From assembly GCF_003202755.1 (NCBI RefSeq), contig NZ_QGLK01000005.1, positions 62,001 through 126,000 of the forward strand: DNA of 64,000 bases, read 5' to 3'. The notes under the pieces are model-generated. The model ran no database searches. It was not told where the DNA came from and was given only the letters and a program-made list of their open reading frames with translations. This document shows, one piece after another, positions 47,518-60,224 of the stretch. The translations under genes and the position numbers were made by a program. Source of the DNA: Bifidobacterium asteroides. GTDB taxonomy: Bacteria > Actinomycetota > Actinomycetes > Actinomycetales > Bifidobacteriaceae. How positions within the stretch are numbered: the stretch's first letter is position 1; every line of letters starts with the position of its first letter.

Positions 47518-49338
47518 ATGGTCGAGACGCTCTTTTCCGGACTCATCCACGGCGGCGTTTACGCTCTGGCTGCCGTGGGGATGTCCCTGGTCTTCGGAGT
47601 GACCAATGTGGCCAATTTCGCACAAGGATCCCTGGTAGCGGTAGGCATGATGACGGCCTGGTGGGTAGGCTCCTCCCTAGGCTGGGGACTCGTTCCCACC
47701 ATACTGGCCGTCGTCCTGGTCACGGGTCTGGTCGGCCTGGTCACCAACCTCCTGGTCATCACTCCCCTGGAAGGCCGGCAGCCGATCGCCGCGCTCTTGG
47801 GCACTGTCGGCCTAGGGCAGGTGCTGGATAACGGGATGCAGCTGATCTTTGGCTCTCAGACCAGGGCCTTCCCCCAGCTGCTGCCCACCCACAACCTGCA
47901 TGCGTTGGGCATCAGCTTCGGCACCTCCGACCTGGTCATGGGTCTGGTCGCCCTGGCCAGCATGGTTGCGCTCTGGGCCTTCTTGACCTACGGCAGGACC
48001 GGACAGGCCATCAGGGCCACCTCGCAGGACTCCCAGGCCGCGTTGCAGATGGGGGTGCCGGTCACCTCCATTCGCACCATAGCTTTCGTCATCGGTTCGA
48101 TTCTGGCGGGCATCGCCGGAATTTTCATCGGCCTGTTCAAGACGAACATCAACCCCATGGACGGCAACGCCATCGGCATGACAGCCTTTGTGGCCGCCGC
48201 CATCGGCGGGCTGGGCTCCATCCCCGGAGCCATCATCGGGGGCCTGGTTCTAGGTTTGGCCGAAGCCGTCGGCGTAGGACTCTTCGGCGATGGCGTGCAC
48301 GACCTGATCACCTTCGGCACCCTCCTGTTGGTTCTGATTCTCAAGCCCTCGGGATTCCTGGGCCGCAAGGCAGACATGGGCAAGGAACCCATGACCGGAA
48401 CCCTACCGGAAGCCGCCAGACCCATCCGTCTGCCGCTTTGGGCCAACCTCGGCCTTGCAGCAGCCGCCCTGGCCACCCCCTTCATTTTCTCCGACCATCT
48501 GGCCGGCATCGGGACCCAGGTTGCCATATACGCCATTGCCGCAGTGGGCCTGACGCTGATCTCAGGATCAGCCGGTCAGACCATCCTGGGGTTGGCAGGA
48601 CCTGTGGCCGTGGGAGCCTACGCCTCGGCCCTGCTGACCATGCGTCTGCATTGGCCCTTCACCCTCTCCCTGCTGGGCGCGGCCGTCATCGCCGCCCTGG
48701 CCGCATCCCTGCTGACATTCCCGGTATGGAAGCTCAGTGGCCACTATGTGGCTATCGCCACCATAGGCGTGGGAGCAGTCATGGTCGCCATCATCCGCAT
48801 CTGGGAACCTCTGACCAGGGGCTCGCTAGGTCTGCAAGGCATTCCCCTGCCGACATTCCTGGGCAAGCCGCTCTACACCCAACAGATGCAGTACCTGCTG
48901 GATCTGGTCATTCTTCTTCTGGTCCTTGCAGTGACCTCCCGGATCCGGTCCTCACATCTGGGCCACGTCTTCGAGGCCATCGGCGAGGACGGACAAGCGG
49001 CCTGGTCCCTGGGGATCAGGACAGGGGCCTACAAGGCGCTGGCCTATGCCCTGGCATGCGGGTCGGCAGGTATCGCAGGAGCCCTGCTGGCACACCAGTA
49101 CACCTATATCGACCCGACCCTCTTCAATCCGACCATGTCGACCCTGATTCTGACCATCATCGTCCTGGGTGGCATGAAGTCCCCGACCGGAGCTGTGATC
49201 GGCTCCCTGATCCTGGTAGGGGCCCCTGAACTGCTGCGTATCCTGCCCGAGGTGAGAATCATGGCCTACGGACTCGTCCTGATCATCTTCATCATCTGCA
49301 GACCACAAGGCCTGTTCTCAACCAAAAGGAGGGCATGA
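47518..49338 (+). CDS. livHM: ABC transporter permease, LivH-LivM fusion
   Basis: 606 residues. Residues 1 to about 285 are a LivH-type permease (MVETLFSGLIHGGVYALAAV, AAIGGLGSIPGAIIGGLVLG). Residues about 305-606 are a LivM-type permease (AVGLTLISGSAGQTILGLAG, VFEAIGEDGQAAWSLGIRTG, GGMKSPTGAVIGSLILVGAP). Most bacteria encode these as separate proteins. It starts ten bases after the binding protein and overlaps the ATPase gene by four bases. Confidence 0.93.
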   Translation: MVETLFSGLIHGGVYALAAVGMSLVFGVTNVANFAQGSLVAVGMMTAWWVGSSLGWGLVPTILAVVLVTGLVGLVTNLLVITPLEGRQPIAALLGTVGLGQVLDNGMQLIFGSQTRAFPQLLPTHNLHALGISFGTSDLVMGLVALASMVALWAFLTYGRTGQAIRATSQDSQAALQMGVPVTSIRTIAFVIGSILAGIAGIFIGLFKTNINPMDGNAIGMTAFVAAAIGGLGSIPGAIIGGLVLGLAEAVGVGLFGDGVHDLITFGTLLLVLILKPSGFLGRKADMGKEPMTGTLPEAARPIRLPLWANLGLAAAALATPFIFSDHLAGIGTQVAIYAIAAVGLTLISGSAGQTILGLAGPVAVGAYASALLTMRLHWPFTLSLLGAAVIAALAASLLTFPVWKLSGHYVAIATIGVGAVMVAIIRIWEPLTRGSLGLQGIPLPTFLGKPLYTQQMQYLLDLVILLLVLAVTSRIRSSHLGHVFEAIGEDGQAAWSLGIRTGAYKALAYALACGSAGIAGALLAHQYTYIDPTLFNPTMSTLILTIIVLGGMKSPTGAVIGSLILVGAPELLRILPEVRIMAYGLVLIIFIICRPQGLFSTKRRA

Positions 49339-51116
49339 TGACAGGCAGTCAGCATAGTCCCGAACCCGCACGCGACAATCCCGATCAACCCCTGCTCAGC
49401 GTGCGCGATCTGAGCAAGAGCTTCCAGGGACTGCAGGCGGTGGCCGACGTCAACATGGATCTGGCATCCGGCCAGGTGATAGGCATTATCGGCCCCAACG
49501 GATCAGGAAAGTCCACGACCATCAACCTGATCTGCGGCTTTCTCAAGCCCGACTCGGGCCAGATCAGCCTGAGGGGACGCACCGTGACCGGCCTGCCCGC
49601 TACGGACATGGCCGAGCAGGGGGTGTCACGCACCTTCCAGAACGGTAGGGTCTTCCCGGCCATGAGCGTTGAGGAGAACGTGGCCGTGGGATTCCATAGG
49701 CGCCTGGAAGCCCGCAGGCCCTTTCGCCGTCTGGAGAGGTGGCCCATCCTGCGATGGATCCCCCTGCTGACGCAGACCTGGCTGACGCTGGTGCCCGGTC
49801 CCGCCTGCGGGAGGGAGGCGGTCGCCGAACGCAAGGCCGTCCAGTCCGAGATCGACAGATTCAGCGAGCGCCTGGAGGAGCATCGCACCCAGGCCGCCTA
49901 CACCCTGTCCTACGCCAACAGGCGCCGCACCGAAATCGCCAGAGCCCACGTCAGTTCCCCTGACATCCTGGTCTTGGACGAACCCACCGCAGGGATGAAC
50001 CAGTCGGAGACAGCCGAGGTACTGCAACAGCTCCTGGAGCTCAAGGCCCAAGGTCAGACCATGCTTCTGGTCGAGCACAAGATCGATCTGATCGAAGCGC
50101 TTTGCGACCAGGTCATCGCCATGGACGGCGGCCGGATCATCGCCTCCGGACTTCCCAGGCAGGTCAGTGCCGACCCCCGCGTCATCACCGCATACCTGGG
50201 CGACCGCAGACCCCGCAACAATGCCCCCATGAACGGGCAGGCGGATGTTCTGGCCCGGCAGAACGCCCTGGCTTCGGTCACCGCTGCGGAACCGATTGAT
50301 GGCCAGGATCCCGACAGCACAGGAACCAGGCTGAGAGCCAAGGCTGAGGCCTCTGATGATGATGAGGGGAAGCCGACCGCCGAGGGGGCACGAACATTGC
50401 TCTCCCTGGATGGCGTCGATGTGAGCTATGGCCCGGTCAAGGCCCTGGATCATGTCAGTCTTCGCATTCCTCAAGGCGGCATCGTCTCCCTCCTGGGCGG
50501 GAATGCTTCAGGCAAGTCCACAACCATGAAGACCATCCTGGGCCTGCTGGCTCCAAAGGAGGGGACCATCCGTTTGGATGGACAGGAAATCACCCACACC
50601 CCCACCAAGGATCGGGTCCGTTCCGGAATCGCCTCAGTTCCGGAGGCAAGAAGGGTCTTCGCGGCCATGAGCGTGGAGGAGAACCTGCGTATGGGCGCCT
50701 ACACCCAAAGGGAGCGCAATCAGATCGAGCAGGATCTGGATACCATATATGAGCGCTTCCCCCGCCTGGCCGAACGCCGCGGGCAGCAGGCCGGCACCCT
50801 TTCAGGAGGCGAGCAGCAGATGCTGGCCTTCGGCAGGGCCCTGATGAGCCATCCCCGGCTGATATGCATGGACGAGCCGACCATGGGCCTATCGCCCAAG
50901 CTGGTCGACCAGGTGCTTGAGCAGATCGCCTCCCTTCGCGACCAGCTGGGCATCTCCATCCTTTTGGTCGAGCAGCAGGCCGAGCTGGCCCTGTCCATCG
51001 CCGACTACGGGTACGTGCTGCAGAACGGCCTGATCCGTCTGGAGGGGCCTGCCCGACAGCTCTTGAATGATGAACGTGTCCGCCAGGCATACCTGGGCAA
51101 GGCAACCTCCCGATAG
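49335..51116 (+). CDS. livGF: ABC transporter ATP-binding protein, LivG-LivF fusion
   Basis: 593 residues with two nucleotide-binding domains. The first (about 15-295) is LivG-like: GPNGSGKSTT Walker A, VSRTFQNGRVFPAMSV Q-loop, a weakly conserved signature LSYANRRRTEIARA, and ILVLDEPTAGMN. A polar linker of about 60 residues follows. The second (about 355-593) is LivF-like: GGNASGKSTT, LSGGEQQMLAFGRALM and LICMDEPTMGLS. The pair energises LivHM. Its ATG overlaps the livHM stop. Confidence 0.93.
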   Translation: MMTGSQHSPEPARDNPDQPLLSVRDLSKSFQGLQAVADVNMDLASGQVIGIIGPNGSGKSTTINLICGFLKPDSGQISLRGRTVTGLPATDMAEQGVSRTFQNGRVFPAMSVEENVAVGFHRRLEARRPFRRLERWPILRWIPLLTQTWLTLVPGPACGREAVAERKAVQSEIDRFSERLEEHRTQAAYTLSYANRRRTEIARAHVSSPDILVLDEPTAGMNQSETAEVLQQLLELKAQGQTMLLVEHKIDLIEALCDQVIAMDGGRIIASGLPRQVSADPRVITAYLGDRRPRNNAPMNGQADVLARQNALASVTAAEPIDGQDPDSTGTRLRAKAEASDDDEGKPTAEGARTLLSLDGVDVSYGPVKALDHVSLRIPQGGIVSLLGGNASGKSTTMKTILGLLAPKEGTIRLDGQEITHTPTKDRVRSGIASVPEARRVFAAMSVEENLRMGAYTQRERNQIEQDLDTIYERFPRLAERRGQQAGTLSGGEQQMLAFGRALMSHPRLICMDEPTMGLSPKLVDQVLEQIASLRDQLGISILLVEQQAELALSIADYGYVLQNGLIRLEGPARQLLNDERVRQAYLGKATSR

Positions 51117-53282: not shown

Positions 53283-54338
<1,056 letters not shown>

Positions 54339-54449: not shown

Positions 54450-56645
54450 TTAAAGCATGCAGCTGACGCAGCCCTCGACCTCGGTGCCCTCCAGCGCCTG
54501 CTGGCGGATCCTGATGTAGTAGAGGGTCTTGATCCCCTTGCGCCAGGCGTAGATCTGAGCCTTGTTCAGGTCACGGGTGGTGGCCGTGTCGGGGAAGAAG
54601 AGGGTCAACGAGAGCCCCTGGTCCACATGCTGGGTGGCCTCGGCGTAGGTGTCTACGATCTTCTTCCAGCCGATCTCGTAGGCGTCCTCGAAGTAGTCCA
54701 GGTTCGCGTTCGTCATGTAGGGGGCCGGGTAGTAGACGCGCCCGATCTTGCCCTCCTTGCGGATCTCGATCTTGGATGCGATCGGGTGGATGGAGCTGGT
54801 GGAGTGGTTGATGTAGGAGATGGACCCGGTCGGGGGTACGGCCTGGAGGTTCTGGTTGTAGATCCCGTCCTTGAGGATGGCCGCCTGGAGTTTCTTCCAG
54901 TCCTCAACCGTGGGAATGTGGACCTTGTACTGGTCGAAGAGGTCCTTGATCCGCTGGGTCCTGGGCTCCAGGGAGCGGCTGCCCTCAGTGTACTTGTCGA
55001 AGTAGTTCCCCTGGCCGGCCGGCTTGGCATAGTCTGACTTGGCGAAGGAGGCGAAGGCCTTCCCCCGCTCCACGGCCAGGGCATGTGAGGCCCTGTAGGC
55101 GTGGTAGGCCACGGTCATGAAGTACATGTCCGTGAAGTCCAGCCCCTCCTCGGACCCATAGTGGATGCCCTCGCGGGCCAGGAAGCCATGGAGGTTCATC
55201 TGGCCCAGGCCGATGGCATGGCCCTCGTCGTTGCCCCGCTTGATTGAGGGGACGGCCTCGATGTTGGTGTGGTCGGAGACGGAGGTCAGGGCCCGCACCG
55301 AGGTCTCGACCGTGTCGGCCAGGCCGCCGTCCATGGCCTTGGCGATGTTGAGGGATCCCAGGTTGCATGAGATGTCGCGGCCGATATGCTCATAGTTCAG
55401 GTTCTCGGAGTAGGTGCTGGGCTCCTGGACCTGCAGGATCTCCGAGCAGAGGTTGGACATGGTGATCCGGCCGTCGATGGGGTTGGCCTTGTTGACCGTG
55501 TCCTCGAAGAGGATGTAGGGGTAGCCGGACTCGAACTGGATCTCGGCCAGGGTCATGAAGAAGTCACGGGCATCGATGTACTTCTTGTGGATTCGCTTGT
55601 CCTTGACCATCTCCTCATAGCGCTCGGTGATGGAGATGTCGGCGAAGGGCTTGCCGTAGACCCGCTCCACGTCGTAGGGCGAGAAGAGGGCCATGGGCTC
55701 CTTGCGCTTGGCCAGCTCGAAGGTGATGTCGGGGATGACCACGCCCAGGGCCAGGGACTTGATGCGGATCTTCTCGTCCGCGTTCTCCCGCTTGGTATCC
55801 AGGAAGCGCATGATGTCAGGATGGTGGGCCGACAGGTAGACGGCACCGGCACCCTGGCGGGCACCCAGCTGATTGGCATAGGAGAAGGAGTCCTCCAGGA
55901 GCTTCATGACCGGAACCACGCCGCTGGACTGGTTCTCGATGTGCTTGATGGGTGCGCCCATCTCGCGCAGGTTGCTGAGCAGCAGGGCCACGCCGCCGCC
56001 CCTCTTGGACAGCTGCAGGGCGGCGTTGACGCCGCGGGAGATGGACTCCATGTTGTCCTCGATGCGCACCAGGAAGCAGGAGACCGGCTCGCCGCGCTGG
56101 GCCTTGCCCAGGTTCAGGAAGGTCGGGGTGGCGGGCTGGAAGCGGCCGGAGATGATCTCATCCGTGTACTTCATGGCTGCCTGCTCATCCCCGTCGGCCA
56201 GCTCCAGGGCCACGGCCACGCAGCGCTGGGGGAAGTCCTCCAGGTAGCGCTTGCCGTCGAAGGTCTTCAACGCATAGGAGGTATAGAACTTGAAGGCGCC
56301 CAGGAAGGTCTCGAACTCAAAGCCGCTCTCGGCCGCATGCTTGTAGATCCTGTCCAGGAACTCAGGAGTGTAGCTCTCGAAGACCTTCCGATCGTAGTAC
56401 TCGTGATCCAGGAGGTAGGCAATCCTCTCGGCCGTGGAGGGGAAAGTCATGGTGTTGGGCCGTACGTGCCGGTCCATGTACTGGCGTTCGGCCTCGCGGT
56501 CCTTGTCGAACTGAATCCTGCCGTCCTTGTCGTACAGGTTCAGCATGGCGTTCAGGGCATGGTAGTCGTGAGCCGGATCGAAGGTCTCCTCATCCTCGGA
56601 TGCGGTCCTATCCAGGGCCAGGGACGTGTCCTCGTTTGCTCCCAT
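54450..56645 (-). CDS. nrdE: Class Ib ribonucleotide reductase large subunit
   Basis: Catalytic alpha subunit converting ribonucleoside diphosphates to deoxyribonucleotides, 731 residues. The class Ib type lacks the N-terminal ATP cone. Visible features include the active-site Cys region [19 protein letters not shown], the catalytic NLCSEI, and the redox-active C-terminal CVSC of [10 protein letters not shown]. The start [14 protein letters not shown] is preceded by AAAGGA, so an ATG five codons upstream, which contains that site, is rejected. It is the only large subunit in the window and is placed between the two NrdI-NrdF sets. Confidence 0.96.
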
Positions 56646-56696
56646 CGGGTGTCCTTTCATGAGTATTGCAGTGATAGTGCGTGTAATGAAATAGGC

Positions 56697-57194
56697 TCAG
56701 GACTCGGGGTGGTTGCGGAAGAAATCCACAACCCCGCGGCGGACCTTCTCCTGGTCCTCCTTGGTGCCCATGAGCTCGAAATAGTAGAGGAAGGGCACAT
56801 TGCACTTGCGGGAGATGATGTCCCCCGCCATGCAGAAGGCCTCCCCGAAGTTGGTGTTGCCCGAGGCGATGACCCCGCGGATACCGGACCGGTTGGCCGG
56901 GTCGTTCAGGAAGCGCTTGATCTGCGGCATGACCGCCTTCTTAGCTGATCCGCCCCCATAGGTGGGGACGATCAGGATGTAGGGCTGCCGAATGTTGAGC
57001 GGCGGATCCTTGGGCCTCAGAGGGATGCGGAAGACGTCAATCCCCTCGTCATCCAAATGGCAGTTGGCGATGAACCGGGCGGTGTTGCGCGAGGCCGACG
57101 AGAAGTAGACCACGGCCCCCAGGTGCTGACCCTGGGCGGCGAACTCGGGAGCGCTGAGCTCCGAATCAATTCCGGCGGTCTGCTGTTGCTCCAT
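56697..57194 (-). CDS. nrdI: NrdI flavodoxin-like protein (first copy)
   Basis: FMN protein of 165 residues that supplies superoxide to activate NrdF. It has the phosphate-binding loop [33 protein letters not shown] and IASGNTNFGEAFC near the flavin, and FLYYFELMGTKEDQEKVR at the end. A perfect AGGAGG lies four bases before the ATG. It heads the nrdI-nrdE-nrdF1 operon, which has its own pair of NrdR boxes. Confidence 0.94.
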   Translation of the reverse strand: MEQQQTAGIDSELSAPEFAAQGQHLGAVVYFSSASRNTARFIANCHLDDEGIDVFRIPLRPKDPPLNIRQPYILIVPTYGGGSAKKAVMPQIKRFLNDPANRSGIRGVIASGNTNFGEAFCMAGDIISRKCNVPFLYYFELMGTKEDQEKVRRGVVDFFRNHPES

Positions 57195-57287: not shown

Positions 57288-57334
57288 CTACTATATGTGC
57301 TATTGGTATTGAAAACGGTGAGCATATATAGGGT
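57288..57334. promoter_or_regulatory. Pair of degenerate NrdR boxes upstream of nrdI-nrdE-nrdF1
   Basis: Two A/T-rich elements with cores CTATATGT and CATATATAG start 31 bases apart. Against the NrdR box ACACWATATATWGTGT each matches about 10-11 of 16 positions. The spacing of about three helical turns is that of paired NrdR boxes. They lie about 95-145 bases before the nrdI start. Weaker than the pair at the second operon. Confidence 0.65.
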
Positions 57335-57369: not shown

Positions 57370-58434
57370 CTAGAAGTCCCAGTCGTCGTCGTCAGTGGAC
57401 TCGGAGTGTCCCATGACATAGGAGGAGCCCGAACCCGAGAAGAAATCGTGGTTCTCGTTGGCCGATGGCGACAGGGCCGCCAGGATCTCCGAACTGACAT
57501 CGGTCTGGTCGGCCGCGAACCGGGCCGGGTAGCCCAGGTTCATCAGCGCCTTGTTGGCATTGTAGCGAACGAAGGCGAAGACGTCCTCGACGAAGGGGAA
57601 GCCCTCATAAATCTGCCCCGAGTAGACCATCTCCAGGTCGTAGAGCTTGTCCAGCAAATCGTTGGTGAACTTTTCCAGCATGGCCTGGTCGGCCTGGGTC
57701 CTCTCCTCCAGACCCCGCTGATACTTGTAGCCCGAGTAATAGCCATGGATGGCCTTGTCACGCAGGATCAGACGGATCATGTCGGCCGTATTCATCAGCT
57801 TGGCATGGCTGGAGAAGTAAAGGGGCAGATAGAAGCCCGCATAGAGCATGAGCGAGGAGAGCATGGTGGAGGCCACCTTGCGCTTCAGGGGATCCTCGCT
57901 GACATACTCGTGCAGGACCGTGTGGACGCGCTCCTGGAGGACGTCGTTGGCCACAGCCCAGCGGTAGGCCTTGTCGATCTCCTCGCTGGAGCAGAGCGTG
58001 GAGAAGACCGAGGAGTAGGAGCGGGCATGGACCGACTGCATGAAGGCGATGTTGGTATAGATGGCCTGCTCCTGCTCGGTGCGGGCGTGATCGATCTGCA
58101 CCAGCTCACCGATGGTGGCCTGCGTGGTGTCCAGCATGGTCAGTCCGGTAAAGACGCGGACCGTGGTCTGGCGCTCATGATCGGTCAGGGTGTTCCAGGA
58201 TGGGATGTCGTTGGACAGGGGCACCTTCTCGGGCAGCCAGAAGTTGGAGACCAGTCGGTTCCAGACCTCCAGATCCTTCTCGTCGGTGATGTTGTTCCAG
58301 TTGACCGGGCGAATCCTGGCCTCGGGGGTGACCCGGTACTGGGGCGGAGTGATGGATTGGCGCATCATCTCGTCGTCGGCATAGACGCCGGCCTCTGACT
58401 TTGCGCTCTCTTTGGTGCTTTCCTGCTGGCTCAT
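57370..58434 (-). CDS. nrdF2: Class Ie ribonucleotide reductase small subunit (QSK variant, metal-free type)
   Basis: Beta subunit of 354 residues clearly homologous to NrdF1 but with three of the four ligand glutamates replaced: Gln133 in [12 protein letters not shown], Ser193 in [11 protein letters not shown] and Lys227 in [10 protein letters not shown]. Asp102, His136, His230 and the radical Tyr140 remain. This Q/S/K set is one of the two known signatures of class Ie R2, which binds no metal and carries a DOPA radical formed from the tyrosine with NrdI and oxygen. The docking tail DDDDWDF is identical to that of NrdF1. It overlaps its own nrdI by four bases. The assignment rests on alignment by eye of highly similar segments. 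Confidence 0.92.
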
Positions 58435-58919
58435 GACAAAACCGCCTTTCGTGAATCAGTCGACTGCTGCTGGAGCTGCACTCCCATTCCGACCAGAATG
58501 GCCCTGACCGCCTGTACATCCTCCGCGGTGCCCAGCAGCTCGAATCGATAGAGCTCAGGGACGCCGCACCGACGGGCTATCAGAGGGCCGGCCGCGCAAT
58601 AGGCGCTGCCAAAGTTCCGGTTGCCCGAGGTGACGACTCCGCGGATCAGTCCGCGGTTGACCGGATTGTTCAGGAAGTGGATCACCTGCTTGGGCACGGC
58701 CCCCTTGGCTGACCCGCCGCCATAGGTGGGCACCAGCAGAAGGTAAGGCGCATCCATAATGGGCATGGGCTGGCGCCGCTCGTACAGAGGGATGCGGATG
58801 GGCCCCTCCACGCCCAGCCGCTGCACAAAGCGGTGGGTGTTGTTGGAGACGCTGGAGAAGTACACCAGCTTGGAGGCACCATCGGGAGGATCGTGCCGAT
58901 CCACATCTGCTGAGGACAT
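58431..58919 (-). CDS. nrdI2: NrdI flavodoxin-like protein (second copy, paired with class Ie NrdF2)
   Basis: 162 residues, diverged from the first NrdI but with the same motifs: [53 protein letters not shown] and [17 protein letters not shown]. In class Ie systems NrdI is required to hydroxylate the radical tyrosine to DOPA. The start [12 protein letters not shown] follows AAGGAG at 11 bases and lies 23 bases downstream of the NrdR boxes; an in-frame ATG 20 codons upstream would place the boxes inside the gene and is rejected. Confidence 0.92.
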
Positions 58920-58941: not shown

Positions 58942-58989
58942 ACACTATATATTGGATAGGCTTGGCCAGCCAACCACAATATATAGGTT
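58942..58989. promoter_or_regulatory. Pair of strong NrdR boxes upstream of nrdI2-nrdF2
   Basis: ACACTATATATTGGAT (58942-58957) and CCACAATATATAGGTT (58974-58989) each match the NrdR box ACACWATATATWGTGT at about 13-14 of 16 positions. They are 32 bases apart, or three helical turns, as expected for a nucleotide-dependent NrdR repressor. They lie just before the nrdI2 start and probably overlap its promoter. Confidence 0.88.
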
Positions 58990-59099: not shown

Positions 59100-60224
59100 T
59101 CAGTCAGCAATCGGATCCTGCGGTAAACCCTGCCGACGCAGATCAGCGCAAACTTCCAGGACCCGGTCGTTGGCTTCCCGCTCCCCCACAGTGATGCGGA
59201 TGCCCTCGCCAGGGAAGGTCCTGACCGACAAGCCTACGTCGCGGAAGAGCTGATCAGCCTGTGCGGCAGCCTGGCCCAGAGGCAGCCAGTAGTAGTTGGC
59301 CCGAGGTTCAGGGATCTTCCACCCCTGCTCCTGCAAACCAGCCAGGATCCTGGCCCGTTCCTGCTTGAGTGCCTGGACCCGTTCGGCCAGACGGTCCTGT
59401 GCGTCCAGGCTGGCCATTGCCGCCGTCTGAGCCACATCAGTGACGCCGAAGGGCAGGGCCACCTTGTTCATGCCGGCAATGATCGGCTCCGCTGCCACGG
59501 CGTATCCGATCCGCAGACCAGCCAGTCCATAGGCCTTGGAGAAGGTCCGGGCCACTATCACATTGGGATGCTCGCGCATAAGTGTCAATCCATCGGCTCG
59601 ATCAGGGTCGTCGTTGAACTGTATATACGCCTCATCAAAGAGCACCGGCAGGTCTGCTGGCAGGGCTTGCAGGAGCCGTTCGGCCTGATTGCGATCGACG
59701 TTGGTCGCAGTCGGATTGTTGGGATTGTTGACAATGACCAGTCTGGTGTGGTCATTGACCGCCGCAATCATGGCCTCGATGTCATGGCGCCCCTGCTTAT
59801 CCAGAGGCACAGGCACCCCGGTGGCGCCGGCCATGGTGATGATGATGGGATAGGCCTCGAAACTGCGCCAGGGATAGACCACCTGATCGCCGTGACCGGC
59901 CACCAGGTCAACCAGCTGGGTGATGACCTCAGTGGATCCGCATCCCAGCTGAATGCATGCTGGATCGACCCCGTGCAGCTTGGCCAGCCGCTCTACCAGA
60001 CGGGTGCCGTGCATGTCCGGATAGCGGTTCAAATGCCCCAAGGCTTGCTCTGAGACGGTCTGAAGCACACCAGGCAAGGGCGGATAGGGGTTCTCATTAC
60101 TGGAGATCTTGTAACTGGTTAACCCGGGAACGGCTGGTGCCGGGCTGCCCTGCCGGTATCCGGGAAGGGAATCAATGCTGGCGCGATGACGATAGTACAT
60201 GAGCACCATGCTAGTGGCCGCCAC
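59100..60224 (-). CDS. hisC2: Histidinol-phosphate/aromatic aminotransferase family protein
   Basis: 374-residue fold type I PLP aminotransferase. The motifs are ISSNENPYPPLPGV, RYPDMHGTRLVERLA, VIVNNPNNPTATNV, LFDEAYIQF and the PLP lysine K230 in ARTFSKAYGLAGLRIGYAV, with the arginine about ten residues later. The likely activity is histidinol-phosphate or phenylalanine/tyrosine transamination (the Pat/HisC2 group). No his operon is near, which favours the aromatic role. The GTG start has only a weak ribosome site; ATGs five and eight codons later are possible. Confidence 0.88.
   Translation of the reverse strand: MAATSMVLMYYRHRASIDSLPGYRQGSPAPAVPGLTSYKISSNENPYPPLPGVLQTVSEQALGHLNRYPDMHGTRLVERLAKLHGVDPACIQLGCGSTEVITQLVDLVAGHGDQVVYPWRSFEAYPIIITMAGATGVPVPLDKQGRHDIEAMIAAVNDHTRLVIVNNPNNPTATNVDRNQAERLLQALPADLPVLFDEAYIQFNDDPDRADGLTLMREHPNVIVARTFSKAYGLAGLRIGYAVAAEPIIAGMNKVALPFGVTDVAQTAAMASLDAQDRLAERVQALKQERARILAGLQEQGWKIPEPRANYYWLPLGQAAAQADQLFRDVGLSVRTFPGEGIRITVGEREANDRVLEVCADLRRQGLPQDPIAD

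Follow-up and report, generated by a model that had tools for sequence, protein, structure and literature searches.

Which kind of small subunit (R2) is encoded by the second nrdF gene of a Bifidobacterium asteroides ribonucleotide reductase (RNR) locus, and with which partners would it work? The window, that is, the whole stretch of 64,000 nucleotides that was analysed, comprises positions 62001-126000 of contig 5 of a 2.17-Mb genome that is 99.99% complete, from an organism which we take to belong to the bee-gut group. The minus-strand gene order was hisC-like, nrdI2, nrdF2, nrdI1, nrdE and nrdF1 (Table 1), with a 4-base overlap (ATGA) of the nrdI2 stop and the nrdF2 start and with gaps of 175 bases between nrdF2 and nrdI1, 36 between nrdI1 and nrdE, and 171 between nrdE and nrdF1. 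The genome encodes two NrdF proteins and one R1-type protein (PF02867 search), as well as one class III NrdD in one frame, one NrdR, and a single NrdH encoded on this contig at a distance of about 119 kb.

Judged from sequence and from analogy with the Gardnerella vaginalis enzyme, NrdF2 is very probably a QSK-type class Ie R2, with Gardnerella-like metal-free DOPA chemistry, an NrdE in common with NrdF1, and an origin by entry of a QSK gene into a lineage with native nrd genes. The window provides a natural side-by-side system of one catalytic subunit, two radical sources and two NrdIs, complemented by sister strains without NrdI2 or NrdF2. It allows direct tests of whether a single NrdE can accept both radicals, whether NrdI is exchangeable between R2b and R2e, and whether a metal-free enzyme is beneficial under metal shortage. 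To the original prediction, a QSK-type subunit with a dedicated NrdI, our analysis adds the two-R2, one-R1 arrangement with predicted NrdR control, limits to the term 'dedicated', and a lead named NrdFx.

Table 1 Coordinates of the nrd locus and other window features, of an nrdF2 relic in a sister genome, and of nrdFx loci.
Feature	Position	Strand	Description
nrdF2	57370..58434	-	probable class Ie (QSK) R2 small subunit, 354 aa; N-terminal extension, TDDDDWDF tail
nrdI2	58431..58919	-	flavoprotein activase; start ATG 58919; TIGR00333 E 3.1e-43 and PDB NrdI matches (query started 12 bases 5' of this ATG)
nrdI1	56697..57194	-	bifidobacterial NrdI; TIGR00333 E 2.1e-40, tree placement
nrdE	54450..56660	-	catalytic R1; TIGR04170 1159 bits; sole PF02867 match of the genome
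nrdF1	53283..54278	-	class Ib R2, six metal ligands all present; TIGR04171
hisC-like	59100..60224	-	histidinol-phosphate transaminase-like, NF002878; directly upstream of the nrd cluster
NrdR box 1	58974..58989	-	AACCTATATATTGTGG; unchanged across 13 aligned genomes, window included
NrdR box 2	58942..58957	-	ATCCAATATATAGTGT; one base differs in 1 of 13 aligned genomes
Possible degenerate NrdR box pair before nrdI1	57288..57334	-	11 mismatches, spacer 15; equalled in 20 of 200 simulated windows
593-aa protein	49335-51116	+	by eye, two ABC ATPase domains (two Walker A motifs), resembling a fused branched-chain amino acid transporter LivG-LivF
nrdF2 relic (G142)	L133:12505-12935		between hisC-like and nrdI1; whole active-site region (gene middle) missing
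nrdFx	L161:3407-4705	-	divergent R2-like protein
nrdFx	L164:9865-10992	+	divergent R2-like protein
nrdFx	L165:2938-4227	-	divergent R2-like protein
nrdFx	L173:11180-12505	+	divergent R2-like protein
nrdFx	L208-L211, L213-L216		divergent R2-like protein

Active site and class of NrdF2

NrdF2 matches PF00268, with an NrdF-like ferritin fold, and is 58% identical to NrdF1. In the alignment of the two, Gln133, Ser193 and Lys227 of NrdF2 stand opposite Glu110, Glu170 and Glu204 of NrdF1, and Asp102, His136, His230 and the radical tyrosine Tyr140 are retained, which confirmed the residues read in the original prediction. Class Ie R2s of the QSK type are recognized by this fold, by the Gln, Ser and Lys substitutions with the Asp, two His and radical Tyr kept, and by an nrdI in the same gene stretch, all of which were found for NrdF2. 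NCBIfam labels NrdF2 class 1b even so (NF010572, TIGR04171). Class Ib R2s such as M. tuberculosis NrdF2 (8J4X) and E. coli NrdF (3N37) share with it the fold, the NrdI partner and the R1 tail at 56-60% identity, but three of the six metal ligands that define them, all present in NrdF1, are missing from the NrdF2 of the window.

The class assignment was also borne out by an R2 tree of 124 NrdF rows, in which 68 QSK rows, including NrdF2, were separated from 56 class Ib rows by a branch with support of 100. The nearest solved relative was the G. vaginalis R2eQSK (PDB 8RAG, 8RAH; PMC11846895, cited throughout for the part of its text available to us), which is 78% identical to NrdF2 and has the same seven active-site residues, N-terminal extension, tail and fold. 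The VPK R2s of Mesoplasma florum (6GP2) and Aerococcus urinae (6EBO) are about 50% identical to NrdF2 and resemble it in the third-position Lys, the Tyr and Asp, and the NrdI partner, but have Val and Pro where NrdF2 has Gln and Ser; their genes are ordered nrdFIE in virtually all genomes (PMC11846895).

A VPK-type NrdF2 was rejected on these residues. A class Ib protein with misaligned ligands was likewise rejected, as both a structural alignment and an alignment to 8RAG without gaps placed Q, S and K, not glutamates, at the ligand positions. A sequencing or frame artefact was rejected on the agreement of all QSK copies in the genus (18/18).

Control, partners and retention of nrdI2-nrdF2

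The pair of NrdR boxes upstream of nrdI2 shows 5 mismatches in 32 positions against the NrdR consensus used here with a spacer of 16, and a pair with at most 9 mismatches occurred in none of 200 simulated windows (first-order Markov). NrdR binding has been reported at spacers of 14-17 (available text of PMC12051234); by this consensus, nrdI2-nrdF2 has the two boxes, the 14-17 bp spacer and the NrdR gene expected of an NrdR regulon. Better pairs than that before nrdI1 in the window, with 9 mismatches, were located upstream of nrdI1 in the sister genomes G138 and G142. A strict scan of the 64-kb window with a DtxR consensus and 3 mismatches allowed found no DtxR-like box, so the sequence does not link nrdF2 to metal starvation. 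Given the conserved, scored box pair and the absence of a DtxR-like site, NrdR control of nrdI2-nrdF2 is supported by the sequence and metal control is not, and the two genes probably form one transcription unit under this dATP-sensing repressor.

The likely use that we propose is a second aerobic, metal-independent radical source during Mn or Fe shortage. A switch in which such shortage turns nrdI2-nrdF2 on and nrdI1-nrdE-nrdF1 off is conceivable but doubtful: in Bifidobacterium breve, nrdE and nrdF fell 4- to 5-fold under iron limitation, whichever R2 type they represent (available text of PMC5449479), but the boxes found at the locus are of the NrdR type only.

Both R2s end in TDDDDWDF and have the tail tyrosine, and the single PF02867 match in this nearly complete genome leaves them one NrdE to work with; these features suggest that one NrdE probably serves both small subunits. 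Judging from gene content, NrdF2 would hand its radical to this NrdE, as would the metal-type NrdF1. Gardnerella has the order nrdHIEF, with QSK as its only class I R2 and an NrdI of the bifidobacterial clade, whereas in the window nrdI2-nrdF2 precedes a complete nrdI-nrdE-nrdF(Ib). The window also resembles genomes with an nrdIF(QSK) stretch and a separate nrdE stretch, where a QSK R2 with its NrdI borrows an NrdE that also has another R2, but differs in that the stretches are only 175 bases apart, giving the order nrdI-F-I-E-F. PMC11846895 counts 275 QSK genes among 266 species genomes of GTDB, and 104 nrdIF stretches, and infers that QSK R2s are able to share an R1 with another R2, which the two-R2 arrangement of the window fits. 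Mixed NrdF1/NrdF2 dimers, with two radical types in one R2 dimer, would be in keeping with the 58% identity, the neighbouring genes, the same tails and the single NrdE, yet we regard them as improbable, because the N-terminal extension that contacts the other monomer in 8RAG is present in NrdF2 but absent from NrdF1, and the Gardnerella protein crystallized as homodimers (PMC11846895).

That the NrdI is dedicated, as originally proposed, holds only in part. In its favour, nrdI2 overlaps nrdF2, and NrdI2 falls outside the bifidobacterial NrdI clade (37 rows, support 100/99) and joins the NrdI of other organisms' QSK loci (34 rows), although with support that is not strong (85/88). NrdI2 as a recent copy of NrdI1 was rejected on this clade and on an identity of 57% to NrdI1; among family genomes that lack NrdI2, the highest identity of any NrdI to it was 62%. 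NrdI2 may still have arisen by an older duplication, given the 85/88 support, a long-branch warning, and an AU test that did not reject NrdI2 and bifidobacterial NrdI as one clade (p 0.134), which also counts against 'dedicated'. So do the sister genomes G138 and G139, in which nrdF2 is at the same place with NrdR-type boxes directly 5' of it (scored for G138) and nrdI2 was not found, and the Gardnerella QSK protein, which forms DOPA with its NrdI (PMC11846895), a member of the bifidobacterial clade. NrdI2 was present at 88% identity or more in 13 of 189 family genomes.

Selection on the locus was estimated from pairs of up to 7 genomes, with pN/pS values of 0.148 for nrdI2, 0.055 for nrdF2 (21 pairs from 7 genomes for both), 0.068 for nrdI1 (L136 excluded), 0.030 for nrdE and 0.013 for nrdF1. 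By these values, nrdF2 is maintained by selection, less tightly than nrdF1, and a ratio about four times that of nrdF1, together with the relic in G142, indicates that nrdF2 is dispensable where NrdF1 is kept. It is very improbable that NrdF2 is a decaying or inactive paralogue retained by chance next to a working class Ib enzyme. Its faster change than NrdF1, the relic at the same site in G142, and the 9 of 27 genus genomes without a working QSK gene (G142 included) would agree with decay, but are opposed by the low pN/pS itself, by seven intact active-site residues in every one of the 18 genus copies, by NrdR boxes conserved in 13 genomes, and by a Gardnerella orthologue that is active and the only class I R2 of its host (PMC11846895).

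NrdF2 itself belongs to an already known kind of R2, since the metal-free state, DOPA and activity of the 78% identical Gardnerella protein have been published. The original prediction dated class Ie, with VPK and QSK variants, to 2018; the class was indeed known, but the QSK biochemistry comes from a 2025 paper, before which, in its available text, activity data concerned VPK proteins only (PMC11846895). In that paper, R2eQSK contained only trace Mn and Fe, with a lysine in metal site 1. Co-expression with NrdI led to DOPA formation, which increased further with NrdH and R1, and CDP reduction required DOPA-bearing protein and reduced NrdI. By analogy, NrdF2 would bind no Mn or Fe pair, with Lys227 occupying metal site 1, and reduced NrdI with O2 would yield an oxidant that converts Tyr140 to DOPA and then to the radical. 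The least probable alternative, that NrdF2 holds a single or different metal ion and an ordinary tyrosyl radical, could draw on the retained Asp102, His136 and His230 and on PDB titles that list the class Ie R2 of Aerococcus with Cu(I) bound, but is contradicted by the trace metal and the site 1 lysine of so close a relative (PMC11846895). That the organism could make deoxynucleotides independently of metal is an inference of the original prediction, and it also has class Ib NrdF1 and class III NrdD.

R2 replacement in the Bifidobacteriaceae

Relatives of the source organism show how a metal-dependent R2 may give way to the metal-free type. NrdF matches were found in 142 of 189 family genomes and were of QSK type by score (E under 1e-150) in 55, and the seven positions read DQHYSKH in all 51 of these in which they were read. 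Within the genus of the window, 18 of 27 genomes carried QSK, 15 at 90% identity or more and 3 at 77-78%; the nearest named loci, with NrdF2 98-100% identical, were those of the bee-gut species B. choladohabitans, B. mellis and B. apousia.

Thirty-five QSK rows of the Bifidobacteriaceae formed one clade, and one further row, that of G088, fell outside it. The 69-row NrdE tree united the 37 bifidobacterial NrdE in one clade, whether their loci were Ib-only, two-R2 or QSK-only, which supports entry of QSK into lineages that had a native NrdE. The NrdI of Gardnerella and B. thermophilum-type QSK loci, placed within the bifidobacterial clade, points the same way. The NrdI, NrdF and NrdE trees were built without L009-L013 and L083-L112, which repeat other loci, and with matches of 100, 250 and 600 residues or fewer, respectively, dropped.

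The varied presence of nrdF2, nrdI2 and class Ib genes across these genomes shows that the family has gained, lost and replaced genes around a single native NrdE lineage. The QSK gene would have entered a lineage that already possessed a native nrdI-nrdE-nrdF(Ib) operon, both being kept here and one or the other lost elsewhere in the family. In G140, G148 and G149 the QSK gene stands alone, and nrdI-nrdE-nrdF(Ib) is located separately. Three further genomes, G025 (L153/L160), G026 (L147/L168) and G102 (L146/L174), have nrdI-nrdE with a stand-alone QSK nrdF elsewhere; no nrdF was found behind their nrdI-nrdE and QSK was the only NrdF among the matches listed, so that it seems to be their only class I R2.

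Two neighbouring genes were recorded as well. A heavy-metal P-type ATPase (TIGR01525, TIGR01512) was located upstream of the stand-alone QSK nrdF in G149 (L120:4729-6720, plus strand) and G140 (L122:6113-8269, plus strand). In 15 of 20 nrdE-bearing loci from the genus or from named members of it, a hisC-like relative (60-96% identity) adjoined the cluster; none was found in the other five (L127, L130, L132, L134, L170).

NrdFx, a divergent R2-like protein of a sister clade

The less expected part of the analysis is NrdFx, detected among the matches listed for a sister clade in 12 genomes that also carry QSK (G038, G095-G098, G100, G101, G103-G107). NrdFx contains long low-complexity inserts and matches PF00268 (E 2.6e-43 to 6.9e-50 in the four tested). 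Its gene follows nrdE in G103, G038, G107 and G101, in the last with an intervening SDR-like gene (named by eye), and nrdI is no more than 5 kb from it in 7 of the 12 (these four, G105, G106 and G098) and 8-20 kb from it in the other 5 (G095, G096, G097, G100, G104). Class Ib NrdF, which would outrank the weakest match listed, was absent from the matches listed for the 12 genomes; including a thirteenth genome, G132, which belongs to the genus of the window, QSK was present in all 13 NrdFx genomes.

Residues were counted in 12 open copies, 11 from the sister clade and that of G132; the copy of G096 has an internal stop. At the class Ib positions, D79 was replaced by Glu in all 12, E204 by Ile or Leu in all 12 and H207 by Ser in all 12; H113 and Y117 were kept in 12, E110 in 11 and E170 in 8 (Gln in 4), and Y175 was Glu in 11 and Gln in 1. 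Past the last helix, no copy has a tail tyrosine and all 12 have DDDWDF; the tail tyrosine is kept by all class I RNRs characterised, according to the available text of PMC8463856.

For selection, 9 of the 13 genomes were used, a motif filter having dropped G096, G097, G104 and G106, of which the last three have open copies and were restored for the residue counts. The NrdFx core gave pN/pS of 0.13-0.26 (the 14 of 36 pairs with the lowest dN), and among these, ten sister-clade pairs gave dN/dS of 0.07-0.17, where the QSK genes gave 0.036-0.084 in the same pairs. By these values NrdFx changes faster than QSK and far slower than a free gene. An R2-like protein with altered ligands, no tail tyrosine and purifying selection may be new.

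In yeast, Rnr4 pairs with Rnr2. We suggest, as a speculative and on balance unlikely reading, that the arrival of R2eQSK in the Bifidobacteriaceae led to a staged takeover and that the native class Ib R2 became, in the clade that includes B. bohemicum, a non-catalytic NrdFx that partners R2eQSK. The stages would be both R2s on one NrdE, as in the window, QSK alone in the native operon, as in Gardnerella and B. thermophilum, and the NrdFx stage. Without the radical-path tyrosine of the tail, yet with the NrdE-docking tail retained, NrdFx would pair with R2eQSK as Rnr4 does with Rnr2; to our knowledge, no such helper R2 was known earlier in bacteria. The other reading is that a class Ib R2, once displaced, is decaying slowly while residual constraint still acts on it.

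Among 396 genomes drawn from the order, an NrdFx match at E 1e-48 or better was found only in G100 and G132. The G132 copy (L212 and L217) is near both contig ends, away from the nrd locus of that genome, on a fragment that also contains an SDR-like gene and an apparent part of nrdE; it resembles a transferred fragment on contig ends that overlap.
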